From positions 1 through 20,459 of IMG/VR virus record IMGVR_UViG_3300048592_000215: a DNA stretch of 20,459 bases; one strand, 5' to 3'. Below the pieces are notes generated by a model. It did no database searches and had not been told where the DNA came from. It saw only the letters and a list, made by a program, of their open reading frames with translations. The translations under genes and the position numbers were made by a program. Position 1 is the first letter of the stretch, and every line of letters starts with the position of its first letter. Of this stretch, positions 281 through 10,031 are shown one piece after another. The DNA comes from a virus.

Positions 281-491
281 TGTGCTTGTAAGGCATATAA
301 AACTCAAGCCGCTGGTAAAGGGCGCATGGGAGCGCAAAGCGGCAATCTGGATCAATGGCGTGGAGATTGTAGGTGTAATCGAGTACGATATACACGCCAG
401 TGTAGAGTCCCGCCTGGGCGTGATGCAGCAATTTACAATCACGATGTGGGCCGACATCGTGATTGAGCATGTAGAGGGGGCAGCAGAGTGA
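267..491 (+). CDS. Hypothetical small phage protein
   Basis: A 74-residue protein. The ATG at 267 is preferred over an upstream in-frame ATG at 240 because GGGGAG (252-257) sits nine bases before it. It overlaps the preceding gene by 14 bases and its TGA (489-491) overlaps the GTG start of the minor head gene, so translation of the three genes is probably coupled. The sequence is rich in predicted beta strands (AAIWINGVEIVGVIEYDI, QQFTITMWADIVIEHV) with no cysteines, signal peptide or membrane segment. I do not recognise a family. Its place between portal-side genes and the minor head protein suggests a head-assembly accessory, by context only. Confidence 0.7.
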   Translation: MEKSDVLVRHIKLKPLVKGAWERKAAIWINGVEIVGVIEYDIHASVESRLGVMQQFTITMWADIVIEHVEGAAE

Positions 492-2572
492 ACGAGCTTC
501 TGTCTGCGCTTGTGCAGTTGGGCATTATCACGAATGCGACGGCGCAGCGTATCAACCGTGACTTGAATCCAGTCGAGGCGGCAGCCTGGGCGGAAAGCGT
601 GATCGGCGATGCTTTCACCGGCGCACTCGCTGCGCAGGAAGGGCGTCTTCTGGATTTGGTTGCGGCCACAGACGGCAGGCCAACGGCGGCGCAAATCAAT
701 TCATTTTGGCGGCGAGAAGATGATTTCCTTTGGGGTTCCGTCCAGTCGTCAGTCGAAACGGTCGCTCAAGAGCGGGCTATTGTGGCGGCGCTGACCGGAG
801 TTGCCGACGACAAGACGTGGAATAAAATCAATGACGCGGTGCTGAACTGGGTCGGCGACTACTACACCAACCTGGACGTTGATTTGGTCGGCTCCATTCC
901 GAATCTGAATGCGACCGGGCGCACTGAGTTTGCACGGTCATTCATCGACTGGCAGCGGGGCGAGTTGGAGACGGCTGGTGCACAAGACGGCTTGCCGCAA
1001 TTGATACGGGCTATCGAGCCAACGTTCGGTCAGGCACGGGCGGCGCGCATCGCAGCCACGGAGACGACCCGCATTTTCTACGAGGCGACCTATCATGCGG
1101 CGAACGCCAACCCGAATGTAACTGCGTTCAGGTGGTATAGCGCCGCAGATGAAAGGGTATGTTTTCCCGAAGGGACACAAGTTTCGACCAGTACCGGAGA
1201 TGTGTCTATTGAGACGATAAAGCCGGGCGATTACGTTTTGACTAGGGGAGGATACAGGAAGGTAGCGGCTGCCAGTGCTAGACCATATCAAGGTGCAATG
1301 TCAACCGTTATCACTCGCAATGGGGCTGTAACGGCTACCAGTGATCATCCATTTTGGACACTAGAACAGGGCTGGTTGCAATGTGGTGATCTCACGACCA
1401 GCCACACTTTGCAAACGTTCAATGACCAAAGCGTTAATATCACCGGCGTTGTCAATTTCCGTGTCGGTGATACGGCAAACTATCCAACCGTAGGATTCAA
1501 GCAATTTGACCTTGCGGGCATCTCTCTTGGGGTCTTGATGCCAGTAAATTCCATCGATTTCGAGGGCAATACGCAAATCCGGAATCAGGAAGTCAATGGA
1601 GTATCTCCCGATTTGCGCCTCTTGAACGAACTGTATGTTGGCAGATTCGAGAACGGAGCGAACGATTTTCTCAATCGAAGATTCGCCAGTGAAAGAACGG
1701 TAACAGGAAATACAACAAAACCGCCTGGTAGTTGCCCCTGGCGAAATCCTGAAAAGTTTGCCGCAGTTGTCGCAGGCGATCTGCTTCGGTGGTCGGCGGC
1801 ATTCTTCAGAGCAGTAATGCCGATTCAAGTGTTGCTCCGCACGAAAAACATTTCCACATCGCCTGCATGTTACATATTTGGTGGTAGCAGTCCGACAATT
1901 CCGGCTACAAACGGTATATCTATCAGCAACTTTGGCACGAACAGAGAAATCCTTTCCGCAGACTGGACAAGTTTTCGTAACCATCGGAGAGGATTTGGCG
2001 ACGATACTGCAATCAGTGGAACAGTATCGTCGGCGCCCGTACAGTTGAAGTTTGGTCAGGGGCTTTCCGCAAATTTCGCAATTCTTGCTAGGCAATATAC
2101 GGATTTTGTCATAGCAAGCCTGCGAACAATAAAGTTTACCCTGCCACGCCGCATTAAATTCCTGTCCACATCCCTTGCATATCTTTTTCATGAAATGACC
2201 TCTGGTGCTATACGTTCAGTGATTGAATCATATCACATGAGGAGTAGCAGCGCAATTCTGGTGTATGACCTGCAAGTTGAAGATGACCATGAATTTTATG
2301 CAAACGGAATTTTAGTGCATAACTGCCCTATCTGCGGCCCCAACCATCTGGTCGTCGTTCCGAAAGCACAACGCACCTGGCCGAACGGCGCAACGATTCC
2401 GGCGCATCCAAATTGTCGATGCCGGGCAATCGAGGAGACGGCCTTGACGCTGGAGACGCCACTACCGCCAGAGGAGCGCTATCGATGGAGCGCAGAGACA
2501 TACGCAAACTACCAGGCGGAACAGACAGCAGCGAGACGACCGACGAACATCATCGACGTGCTGACAGGATGA
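488..2572 (+). CDS. Minor head (SPP1 gp7 / Mu F-like) protein interrupted by an intein
   Basis: The 694-codon frame encodes a 306-residue minor head/head-morphogenesis protein plus a 388-residue intein (residues 225-612). The GTG start overlaps the previous stop and is preceded by GAGGGGG (474-480). N-extein residues 1-224 are mostly helical and end in the Mu F hallmark WYSAADERV. C-extein residues 613-694 begin CPICGPNH and contain HPNCRCR, the conserved C-terminal end of this domain. Joined, they recreate the family signature W-x(4)-D-x-R-V-C-x2-C...HPNCRC, and 306 aa is a normal family length. The protein is expected to bind portal inside the procapsid and help DNA exit or head assembly. 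It needs protein splicing to be functional. The neighbouring HK97 gp10-like gene fits head assembly. Confidence 0.93.
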   Translation: MNELLSALVQLGIITNATAQRINRDLNPVEAAAWAESVIGDAFTGALAAQEGRLLDLVAATDGRPTAAQINSFWRREDDFLWGSVQSSVETVAQERAIVAALTGVADDKTWNKINDAVLNWVGDYYTNLDVDLVGSIPNLNATGRTEFARSFIDWQRGELETAGAQDGLPQLIRAIEPTFGQARAARIAATETTRIFYEATYHAANANPNVTAFRWYSAADERVCFPEGTQVSTSTGDVSIETIKPGDYVLTRGGYRKVAAASARPYQGAMSTVITRNGAVTATSDHPFWTLEQGWLQCGDLTTSHTLQTFNDQSVNITGVVNFRVGDTANYPTVGFKQFDLAGISLGVLMPVNSIDFEGNTQIRNQEVNGVSPDLRLLNELYVGRFENGANDFLNRRFASERTVTGNTTKPPGSCPWRNPEKFAAVVAGDLLRWSAAFFRAVMPIQVLLRTKNISTSPACYIFGGSSPTIPATNGISISNFGTNREILSADWTSFRNHRRGFGDDTAISGTVSSAPVQLKFGQGLSANFAILARQYTDFVIASLRTIKFTLPRRIKFLSTSLAYLFHEMTSGAIRSVIESYHMRSSSAILVYDLQVEDDHEFYANGILVHNCPICGPNHLVVVPKAQRTWPNGATIPAHPNCRCRAIEETALTLETPLPPEERYRWSAETYANYQAEQTAARRPTNIIDVLTG
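1361..2191 (-). CDS. Antisense homing endonuclease: five Cys4 zinc fingers plus Vsr/DUF559-like nuclease domain
   Basis: A 276-residue protein read from the strand opposite the intein. Five tandem CxxC...CxxxC fingers carry cysteines at 5/8/22/26, 38/41/57/61, 75/78/95/99, 109/112/127/131 and 140/143/159/163, probably DNA-binding treble-clef-like modules. Residues about 170-250 form a compact nuclease domain: SSIEKIV, then RYSIDFLIPDLRIALEIDG, YWHQD and RDARK...GWIVCRITDTEI. This resembles Vsr/DUF559 folds and the EDxHD homing-endonuclease family; likely active-site residues are Glu174, Asp200, Glu211/Asp213 and His218. The start is supported by AGAGGT seven bases upstream on this strand. Codons are in exact register with the + frame. 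The likely role is cutting intein-less alleles of the minor head gene to drive homing; that is inference. Confidence 0.9.
   Translation of the reverse strand: MKKICKGCGQEFNAAWQGKLYCSQACYDKIRILPSKNCEICGKPLTKLQLYGRRRYCSTDCSIVAKSSPMVTKTCPVCGKDFSVRAKVADRYTVCSRNCRTATTKYVTCRRCGNVFRAEQHLNRHYCSEECRRPPKQIACDNCGKLFRISPGATTRRFCCISCYRSFTGESSIEKIVRSVLESANIQFVQEAQIGRYSIDFLIPDLRIALEIDGIYWHQDPKRDARKVKLLESYGWIVCRITDTEIDNAGDINALVIERLQSVAGREITTLQPALF
2227..2255 (-). promoter_or_regulatory. Candidate sigma70-type promoter for the antisense endonuclease
   Basis: On the - strand TTGCGC (2250-2255) is separated by exactly 17 bases from TATGAT (2227-2232), which is five of six matches to the -10 consensus. It lies 36 bases upstream of the endonuclease ATG and inside the DNA encoding the C-terminal intein segment. 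The -35 box is weak (three of six). If active, it would let the nuclease be made independently of late + strand transcription. Confidence 0.45.
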
Positions 2573-8422: not shown

Positions 8423-8560
8423 GTCAGATACTCCCCGCTGAAGCAGGGGAGCTTGTTCCTGGGTTGCGAGTGTAAAAGTCTACATCCGCACCCGAAACGT
8501 TCGGCGGTCTGACAGCCGCCCGGCGACCAATGTTAATCGCCGCGTTATGGTCGGCGTTGC
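8423..8560 (-). ncRNA. Predicted omega-RNA (right-end RNA) region of the TnpB element
   Basis: TnpB proteins use an RNA made from the right end of their element, overlapping the end of tnpB and finishing with the terminal hairpin; the next bases outside the element serve as guide. Here the region is structured: a stem-loop at 8431-8451 and GC-rich self-complementary stretches upstream of it. Boundaries are inferred. The predicted guide on this strand, GGAACCCCTTTACGCTACGG, comes from 8403-8422. Confidence 0.5.
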
Positions 8561-9560
8561 AGCTATAGCCGCAGACCACACAGAGGAAAGAACTTTGAGA
8601 CTTTCGGTTAGCCTTCGCCACATGTCCGCAACAGGCGCACGTCTGCGACGTGTAGCGCGGGTCAACCGATACGACGGGGACGCCATGCAACTGGGCTTTG
8701 TACTCTATAAACTGGCGCAACTGGTAGAACGACCAGCTATGCAGATTGTCGCGCTGCGAGCGACGGAGCCGTCCCCGCCCGCGGATGCCAGTCAAGTCCT
8801 CGACGGCAATGCCGCGCTCGGTGCGTTTCGCTTCTTCGACAATCCGCTTGCTGATCGTGTGGTTGACATCACGCGCAAAGCGCGCTTCTTTGCCGGACAA
8901 ACGACGCAGCACGCGTCGCGCCGAACTGGTAGTCTTGGCCTGAAGCCGCTTGCGTTGGCGACGGCGGCGCTTGCGCACGCCAAGCACGTCTGCGCCGGTG
9001 AAGGTTGCGCCGTCCGACGTGGTAGCGATGTTGACGATGCCCATGTCCACGCCAAGCCAGGCGTCGGGGTCAAAGCCGTCATCTTCGAGGATGTTGCACG
9101 GCTGATGCAAGTAGAACTCGCCGTTGCGGTAGACCAGATCGGCTTCGCCTTGCAACGTCTCGATCATCTCACGCTGGCGCTCTCCGCAGACAAACGGCAT
9201 TCGTTGGCGACCGTCCATTGTCCAGATGTTGATCTCGGACTTGTCCAAATGCCAGCGCAGGACGCGGCTGTCGTAGGTGACGCTGCCCATGCGCCGAAAC
9301 GTGCGCTTGGTCTTCGTGTCCAGCTTGTAGGCGTCGGCTACGTTGGCGATGACGCGGATGGTCAACTGTGCCGCCAAGCCAAACTTCTCGCGAACGGAAT
9401 AGTACGTGGCGTGGTGCAAGTCATACTTGCGAAAGGACTTGCGCATCCAAGCCTCGCCGCTGATGTAGTTGGCGGCGTCGTTGTAGGCCAACATCGTGCG
9501 ACGCAGGGCGTCGGCCTGTTCTGGCGTGGTTTGCAGTTTGACTTGGGCAATCAGTTTCAT
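8424..9560 (-). CDS. tnpB: TnpB RNA-guided nuclease (IS605 family)
   Basis: A 378-residue TnpB. The start at 9560 (MKLIAQVKLQTTPEQADALR) matches the family N-terminus; a longer in-frame start lies outside the element and is rejected. The N-terminal recognition/wedge part covers residues 1-165. The split RuvC domain has GVDMGIVNIATTSDG (Asp172), GIAVEDLTGIR (Glu254) and NADHNAAINI (Asp337). The zinc ribbon uses Cys308/Cys311 and Cys327/Cys330. All catalytic and metal residues are present, so nuclease activity is expected. Family members cut DNA matching an omega-RNA guide next to a TAM, which helps the element persist at its site. The stop lies within the right end, so coding and omega-RNA overlap, as is usual. 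Confidence 0.93.
   Translation of the reverse strand: MKLIAQVKLQTTPEQADALRRTMLAYNDAANYISGEAWMRKSFRKYDLHHATYYSVREKFGLAAQLTIRVIANVADAYKLDTKTKRTFRRMGSVTYDSRVLRWHLDKSEINIWTMDGRQRMPFVCGERQREMIETLQGEADLVYRNGEFYLHQPCNILEDDGFDPDAWLGVDMGIVNIATTSDGATFTGADVLGVRKRRRRQRKRLQAKTTSSARRVLRRLSGKEARFARDVNHTISKRIVEEAKRTERGIAVEDLTGIRGRGRLRRSQRDNLHSWSFYQLRQFIEYKAQLHGVPVVSVDPRYTSQTCACCGHVAKANRKSQSSFLCVVCGYSCNADHNAAINIGRRAAVRPPNVSGADVDFYTRNPGTSSPASAGSI
8431..8451 (-). repeat. Right-end subterminal hairpin of the IS element
   Basis: CTCCCC (8431-8436) pairs with GGGGAG (8446-8451) and GCT (8437-8439) with AGC (8442-8444), with a bulged A at 8445. It is nearly the same sequence as the hairpin at 9627-9646. Confidence 0.8.
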
Positions 9561-9626
9561 GCAAGGAGTATAGCACATGTTCACTAGTGACGCAAATGGG
9601 CAAGCTGCGCTTGCTCTCCTATCCCT

Positions 9627-9646
9627 CTCCCCGATGAATCGGGGAG
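9627..9646 (-). repeat. Left-end subterminal hairpin of the IS element
   Basis: CTCCCCGATGAATCGGGGAG forms a 9-bp stem with a 2-base centre, close to the upstream end of tnpB. It is of the kind bound by the Y1 transposase TnpA in this family. Confidence 0.8.
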
Positions 9647-9662
9647 TGTCTCGGAGGTTTTT

Positions 9663-10031
9663 ATGACACAACGCTATGACTTCGATGCCATCGCCGGAAC
9701 GTTCGTCGAATTTGGCGATTCCTGGACGCGCGGCGAGGTGCTGCATTTTTCCGAGCTTGAGGGTGACGCATACTTCGCTTTCCTGGCGTCAAAAATGTTG
9801 GCGCTGAGTCTGCCACTCGGCAGTGGAGAATGGCTGACGGATGCCGCAAAGTTTGTCGAGATGACCGACAGTATCGATATGCGTGCGTTCTACTGGCTAA
9901 TGTCACTGCCAGCGCTGGAGTACGGAAGGATTGGCCGCCTGGGGGAATCGATAGGTCGGCAGTGGTTAATCTCCTACGTGCGTCAACAGACGACGACGCC
10001 GGAACCGCTGACCGACCCATTGCCCAGCTAG
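9663..10031 (+). CDS. Tail assembly chaperone (upstream ORF, gpG-like)
   Basis: A 122-residue acidic protein. GGAGG lies five bases before the ATG and just outside the IS element. It begins YDFDAIAGTFVEFGDSWTRGEVLHF and continues with helices (AKFVEMTDSIDMRAFYWL), matching tail assembly chaperones that precede the tape measure gene. A second overlapping frame (-1 relative) continues past its stop, the usual G/GT arrangement in which a small share of ribosomes make an extended product. It binds tape measure protein during tail polymerisation. Confidence 0.75.
   Translation: MTQRYDFDAIAGTFVEFGDSWTRGEVLHFSELEGDAYFAFLASKMLALSLPLGSGEWLTDAAKFVEMTDSIDMRAFYWLMSLPALEYGRIGRLGESIGRQWLISYVRQQTTTPEPLTDPLPS

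Follow-up and report, generated by a model that had tools for sequence, protein, structure and literature searches.

Can the homing endonuclease of a continuous intein be encoded on the opposite strand, nested between the splicing domains of that same intein? This question was raised by a 20,459-base virus record (the whole stretch analyzed here, hereafter the window), in which head and tail genes are present. The original prediction placed an intein on the + strand and an antisense nuclease gene in the gap between its splicing blocks, and suggested that the arrangement may be new. Here, we report the structure of this locus, a survey of loci with the same layout, and the selection acting on the two overlapping reading frames.

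The host gene is a single open reading frame (ORF) (488-2572, + strand, 694 amino acids [aa]) encoding a minor head protein of the MuF/SPP1-gp7 type with a continuous intein. The N-extein (488..1159) matched Pfam Phage_Mu_F (E 3e-4) and NCBIfam phageSPP1_gp7 (E 6e-4), and its gene was assigned by PHROG to head morphogenesis and minor head protein. The intein (1160..2323, + strand; 388 codons, 388 aa) extends from C1 to H387-N388, with N388 at 2321-2323; the predicted coordinates, 1160-2323, were right to the base. The C-extein (CPIC...HPNCRCR; 2324..2572, + strand, stop included) starts at Cys+1 (2324-2326). No stop was found in the + frame across the whole ORF in the window translation, and there was no frame break of the kind that would have refuted the prediction. 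A simple split intein was ruled out for the window by this single ORF, and the host gene is not broken into two ORFs as it is in fractured genes.

The window intein carries the class 1 residues, namely, C1 in block A, TxxH in block B (T60, H63), H387-N388 in block G, and Cys+1. Blocks A and B lie in the N-terminal part of the Hint domain (1160..1471, + strand; AlphaFold2 [AF2] pLDDT 92-97 for residues 1-100), and blocks F and G, the latter ending in GILVHN, lie in the C-terminal part (2246..2323, + strand; pLDDT 83-96). In the AF2 model, residues 1-104 and 363-388 form a Hint fold, mostly at pLDDT 92-97, of which the best PDB match was the gp41-1 intein (6qaz, E 6.7e-8); the top PDB matches were inteins. 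NCBIfam intein_Cterm matched at E 6.5e-9 and Pfam Intein_splicing at E 1.4e-7, slightly under its curated cut-off, and the predicted complete N- and C-terminal blocks were thereby borne out. Between them, the spacer (1472..2245, + strand) is the antisense translation of the nuclease gene. Its pLDDT was 25-64, mostly below 50, and the peptide is predicted to be disordered; no recognizable domain was detected in it in a Pfam search of the window translations.

The antisense gene (1361-2191, − strand, 276 aa) is in codon register with the intein frame, and, as had been predicted, it encodes five zinc fingers followed by a Vsr/DUF559-like nuclease. The CxxC...CxxxC fingers (1703..2179, − strand; nuclease residues 5-163) span residues 5-26, 38-61, 75-99, 109-131, and 140-163 and are presumed to bind DNA. 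The EDxHD/Vsr-like domain (1397..1684, − strand; residues 170-265) matched DUF559 (E 3e-10), and the best solved relative of the nuclease was I-Bth0305I (3r3p; E 1.9e-15 by profile, E 4e-6 by fold match of the AF2 model, whose mean pLDDT was 91). Among 34 aligned nuclease homologues, the finger cysteines were invariant or at least 90% conserved, and E174, D200, E211, D213, H218, and D224 were invariant. The catalytic domain has a Vsr-like fold with conserved acidic and His residues of the EDxHD type; cleavage itself is inferred. Intein codons 68-104 of the window double as the end of the nuclease gene, and across inteins the nuclease ORF crosses the codon of the nearly invariant W72 in 19 out of 32; part of the Hint domain is therefore truly dual-coding.

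IMG/VR (searched with the intein and with nuclease profiles), named phages, plasmids, and bacterial genomes yielded about a hundred loci. With stops masked, all six frames of these loci were scanned for N and C intein halves flanking the nuclease; nucleases were clustered at 85% identity before distinct loci were counted. The search for the same layout that the original prediction had called for thus returned 37 distinct homologous loci with an antisense nuclease and an open intein frame, all in codon register 0, and C1, T60, H63, H387, and N388 were invariant in 37/37 of the open inteins. Three more loci (L048, L090, and L097) had an antisense nuclease with the intein frame broken, and in another three (L006, L049, and L098) the intein frame was open and the nuclease shared its strand but was read in a different frame. 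No intein was detected around the nuclease in the remaining loci by the six-frame search. The bacterial genome scan gave only two contigs, both from metagenome-assembled genomes (MAGs); the nuclease is embedded in L060 and free-standing in L059. The same-strand, out-of-frame nuclease ORFs (L006, 3596-4243; L049, 3557-4216; L098, 3962-4645; all + strand) occur in hosts that include a terminase, a DEAD-box helicase, and a MuF gene. In L048 (3842-4940), the antisense gene is a zinc-finger HNH gene with a stop, and the intein halves lie in different frames; this element looks degenerate. One MuF ORF (L021, 1652-5191, − strand) has two inteins, with an antisense nuclease seen in the first only.

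Over the overlap, intein and nuclease codons pair one to one as reverse complements, and because of this register only the nuclease codons TTA and CTA (Leu) and TCA (Ser) can stop the intein frame. Expected numbers of these stop-making codons were computed from the codon use of each contig. The window nuclease has 0 against 4.5 expected (P about 0.008), and the 37 embedded nucleases together have 0 against 205.8 expected, in keeping with the prediction that the + frame is retained as an open spacer. The controls behaved otherwise, with 168 against 166.4 expected in 26 free-standing relatives and 26 against 21.5 in the three broken-frame loci. The free-standing set includes two members without such codons (L087 and L096) that have intein N-half matches; this control is conservative, since both are probably embedded. 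Because the 37 loci are related by descent, their individual probabilities cannot simply be multiplied, although the nuclease synonymous sites of distant pairs are mostly near saturation (pS 0.5-0.8). In L090 and L097, the intein frame has 9 and 15 stops, respectively, the antisense nuclease is intact between the halves, and the C-terminal half has its own ATG; both therefore resemble naturally split inteins that hold an antisense nuclease. They are an internal control: stops return once read-through is unneeded. Judged from these codon counts, the openness of the intein frame was shown to be selected.

The amino acid sequences encoded by the two frames are under different constraint. In the pair L022/L027, the same bases gave a dN/dS of 0.14 in the nuclease frame and 1.0 in the intein frame; five other pairs gave 1.1-1.3 for the intein frame, and a pair from Vibrio phages (L009/L010) gave 0.69. 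Across homologue pairs, the nuclease frame ranged from 0.14 to 0.44 and the + frame from 0.7 to 1.3. On these substitution ratios, the nuclease frame is under purifying selection, and the spacer peptide, with a dN/dS of about 1, appears to evolve neutrally and looks free of function.

These data bear on three simpler accounts of the locus. That the + frame is open by chance or composition, the intein being split or dead and the ORF meaningless, is very improbable: in-register antisense ORFs are frequent in GC-rich DNA, where the probability of an open frame is 0.1-0.2 for single loci, but the AT-rich loci L038, L078, L085, and L092 (GC about 0.3) were expected to have 12-17 stops each and have none, and the split inteins L090 and L097 show stops at about the expected rate. 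Chance openness is refuted at the family level by the count of 0 against 206. We give just as little credence to the converse, in which the antisense ORF is a by-product of a functional + spacer and the nuclease a decayed relic. Nothing speaks for it but the openness of the + frame, and against it stand the contrast in dN/dS described above, the invariance or near-invariance of the fingers and active-site residues in 34 sequences, the model confidence (pLDDT 91 for the nuclease against 25-40 for the spacer), and the survival of an intact nuclease where the + frame breaks (L090 and L097). Removal of the insert as RNA, by a group I or group II intron, instead of as a translated intein is scarcely credible; phage homing nucleases of the EDxHD class do occur in introns (PMC12350094), but no Rfam match was found anywhere in the window, and the splicing blocks are complete, the Hint fold is present, and the frame is open.

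Reading of the window sequence gave a ribosome-site-like AGAGG (2199..2203, − strand) upstream of the nuclease ATG and a −10-like TATGAT (2227..2232, − strand; 5/6 match, preceded by TGn, with a weak −35). A generic promoter scan near the window nuclease start returned nothing convincing, and TATGAT was not flagged, because the −35 is poor. Among 40 embedded loci, 14 had an exact TATAAT no more than 40 nucleotides (nt) ahead of the nuclease start (0.4 expected), a −10 match of at least 5/6 occurred in 28 (5.3 expected), often with a −35-like box at a distance of 17 nt, and ribosome sites of at least 4 bases were found upstream in 14 (3.3 expected). Most embedded nuclease genes therefore carry a promoter-like box of their own within the intein DNA. 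Some embedded loci have a promoter and TCAGGAG together; elsewhere, about 6-8 nt separate the end of the −10 box from the ATG, which suggests that these messages may be leaderless. The promoter evidence comes from this family enrichment, the window match being modest. Independent expression of the nuclease gains support from the enrichment of promoters and ribosome sites, although transcription is inferred.

In nearly all hosts, the intein sits before a CxxC motif, at the same codon of very divergent MuF proteins. MuF genes of the zinc-finger family that lack the intein run uninterrupted through this position (L121 for the L079 group; L031 and others), and L079 has a relative, at 46%, with an empty site. 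For the phage of the window itself, an empty site could not be demonstrated, since a single-sequence search with its N-extein turned up no close relative. Free-standing nuclease genes are convergent to intein-less MuF genes in L003, L029, L031, L037, L044, L070, and L075, with the 3' ends of the two genes directly adjoining or sharing as much as about 20 nt. In the nuclease tree, free-standing relatives are nested, and the embedded state must have been gained or lost 11 times; well-supported branches force at least 3 of these changes (as where the free-standing L070 stands beside the embedded L065). The tree is silent on which state came first. Collaborative homing, in which a free-standing nuclease joins an endonuclease-less intron, has been described for group I introns (PMC2988022, PMC3984707). 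By analogy, a free-standing nuclease directed against MuF could plausibly have united with a small intein at this site, a path that is inferred. The system resembles collaborative homing in that the free-standing relatives adjoin the intein-less target gene, and it differs in that an intein with an antisense insertion takes the place of the group I intron. Between L022 and L027, base difference was about 11% over the nuclease ORF; elsewhere in the intein, and in the exteins, it was about 1%, and the nuclease was therefore probably replaced as a cassette.

An independent antisense form, also in codon register, was found in the cultured Vibrio phages 1.265.O, 1.266.O, and 1.082.O. Its nuclease is a different DUF559 enzyme without zinc fingers, at a different MuF site, and is unannotated in the GenBank records of these phages; an IMG/VR profile search with it returned no relative. 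In more than 20 closely related V. breoganii phages, this MuF gene is present but uninterrupted; relative to these empty alleles, the insert measures exactly 1023 nt. Between 1.266.O and 1.082.O, the intein is 1.6% diverged, while the N-extein is 12% and the C-extein 21% diverged. A near-identical intein in diverged exteins is the expected mark of recent homing, and intein and nuclease appear to have been transferred together. This evidence for homing comes from the independent Vibrio type of nuclease and intein, not from the family of the window. Comparison of L009 and L010 with empty alleles gave the junctions HPN^AC...HN^CRST, which suggests that these Vibrio inteins begin with Ala, not Cys; they may not be class 1.

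The rival that retains some weight, although we consider it unlikely, treats the nuclease as a free-standing homing gene that merely takes refuge in the intein and works mostly for its own spread, so that the locus holds two separate selfish elements and the cuts fall elsewhere (in other mini-inteins or in MuF flanks, for instance). The position of the free-standing relatives, the repeated switches in the tree, and the replacement of the nuclease alone in L022/L027 all speak for it. Against it are the co-transfer of intein and nuclease in the Vibrio phages, with 1.6% divergence as opposed to 12-21% in the exteins, and the use of one insertion codon in highly diverged MuF proteins, which is what a nuclease directed at that position should produce.

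We regard a composite selfish element, made up of an intein and an antisense homing nuclease, as very likely the best explanation overall, with splicing, expression, and cleavage being inferred. Such an element would occupy one conserved codon of the phage MuF minor-head gene. After translation of the whole ORF, the Hint domain of the + strand class 1 intein would fold around an unstructured loop of ~260 residues and, to judge from its intact catalytic residues and fold, would splice itself out and restore the head protein. The separate opposite-strand gene would be expressed from its own promoter as a five-zinc-finger homing endonuclease of the EDxHD/Vsr type, and this enzyme is expected to cut MuF genes that lack the intein, at its insertion site or close to it, in phages infecting the same cell, whereupon repair would copy the intein plus its antisense gene into the cut MuF. 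Selection purges TTA, CTA, and TCA from the nuclease, leaving the intein readable and the spacer peptide to drift; because the genes are in codon register, avoiding three synonymous codons is the sole shared constraint over most of the overlap. The nuclease module is replaceable inside the intein and has switched between it and the spot just downstream of intein-less MuF genes. In its broader form, the proposal is of a widespread, undescribed class of phage inteins with splicing and homing on opposite strands, three codons purged, and a cassette-exchanged nuclease that shuttles to the flank of the target gene, which we think probable. This class would be intermediate between a mini-intein with a free-standing nuclease and split, fractured genes.

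Canonical mobile inteins (e.g., PI-SceI) share with the window intein the Hint halves split by a homing endonuclease, the class 1 residues, and the location at a conserved codon of an essential gene. They differ in that their endonuclease is in frame with the splicing domains; here, it is encoded apart, by an opposite-strand gene that has its own start and a probable promoter, and the intein protein holds an unstructured antisense translation instead. Fractured genes, which Dassa and colleagues are said to have described in 2009, reportedly have EDxHD endonuclease genes between the halves of split inteins such as gp41-1 and NrdJ-1. They share the EDxHD/Vsr nuclease superfamily with the window, and gp41-1 is the best structural match of its intein; the host gene there is in two pieces, whereas here a single ORF spans the antisense gene. 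The window's own zinc-finger family also has split versions, L090 and L097. I-Bth0305I, a phage intron endonuclease, is alike in the fold and sequence of the catalytic domain, but it is intron encoded, in another genetic setting.

The ShiLan domain (Arsenault, Gosselin, and Gogarten, 2025) is a same-strand, out-of-frame HNH nuclease for which the host frame is open; no splicing domain was detected, and it stays in the host protein (PMC11855218). In both cases, a homing nuclease gene is hidden in another frame of a phage gene while the host frame remains open, but the window nuclease is antisense and lies inside a true intein with splicing domains, so that the locus is not of the ShiLan type. 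The ShiLan paper cites a preprint on noncanonical actinophage inteins (10.1101/2025.01.02.630785) and, for overlapping frames, Gorbalenya 1998 (PMC11855218); because such works are cited there, same-strand, out-of-frame nucleases in inteins may already be known. As to the suggestion that the antisense arrangement is new, no published continuous intein with an antisense endonuclease was found in the literature covered, which excluded most subscription papers and the 2025 actinophage-intein preprint. The novelty is thus probable but not proven.

The homing enzyme of an intein, then, need not belong to the intein protein, and because it is a separate opposite-strand gene, the two halves of the selfish element can evolve and be expressed separately on shared DNA. 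The locus is a clean natural case of a long antisense gene overlap in which selection is measurable on both readings. The assembly of mobile inteins and their splitting become testable questions, since related nucleases with one main target site occur in free-standing, nested antisense, same-strand out-of-frame, and fractured forms, and direct tests are possible with Vibrio phages 1.265.O, 1.266.O, and 1.082.O and their intein-less sister phages. Inteins of this kind may be useful scaffolds, because they seem to tolerate a long unstructured insert. The layout is also a warning for annotation, as the spacer hides an antisense gene that is absent from the Vibrio records.

Several minor observations were made on the surveyed contigs. 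In L040 (3683-7006, − strand), the host ORF has an N-end phage portal domain (E 3.8e-51) and an intein near its C end, and the portal protein of Mycobacterium phage Blubba is a Hint match. An extra intein C-terminal match occurs elsewhere on the same contig in L024 (8226-8303, − strand) and also in L023 and L026. The window itself carries a TnpB/OrfB-like gene (8424-9746, − strand; Pfam Cas12f1-like_TNB, E 2.5e-25; OrfB_IS605, E 2.4e-10), antisense amid the phage tail genes.
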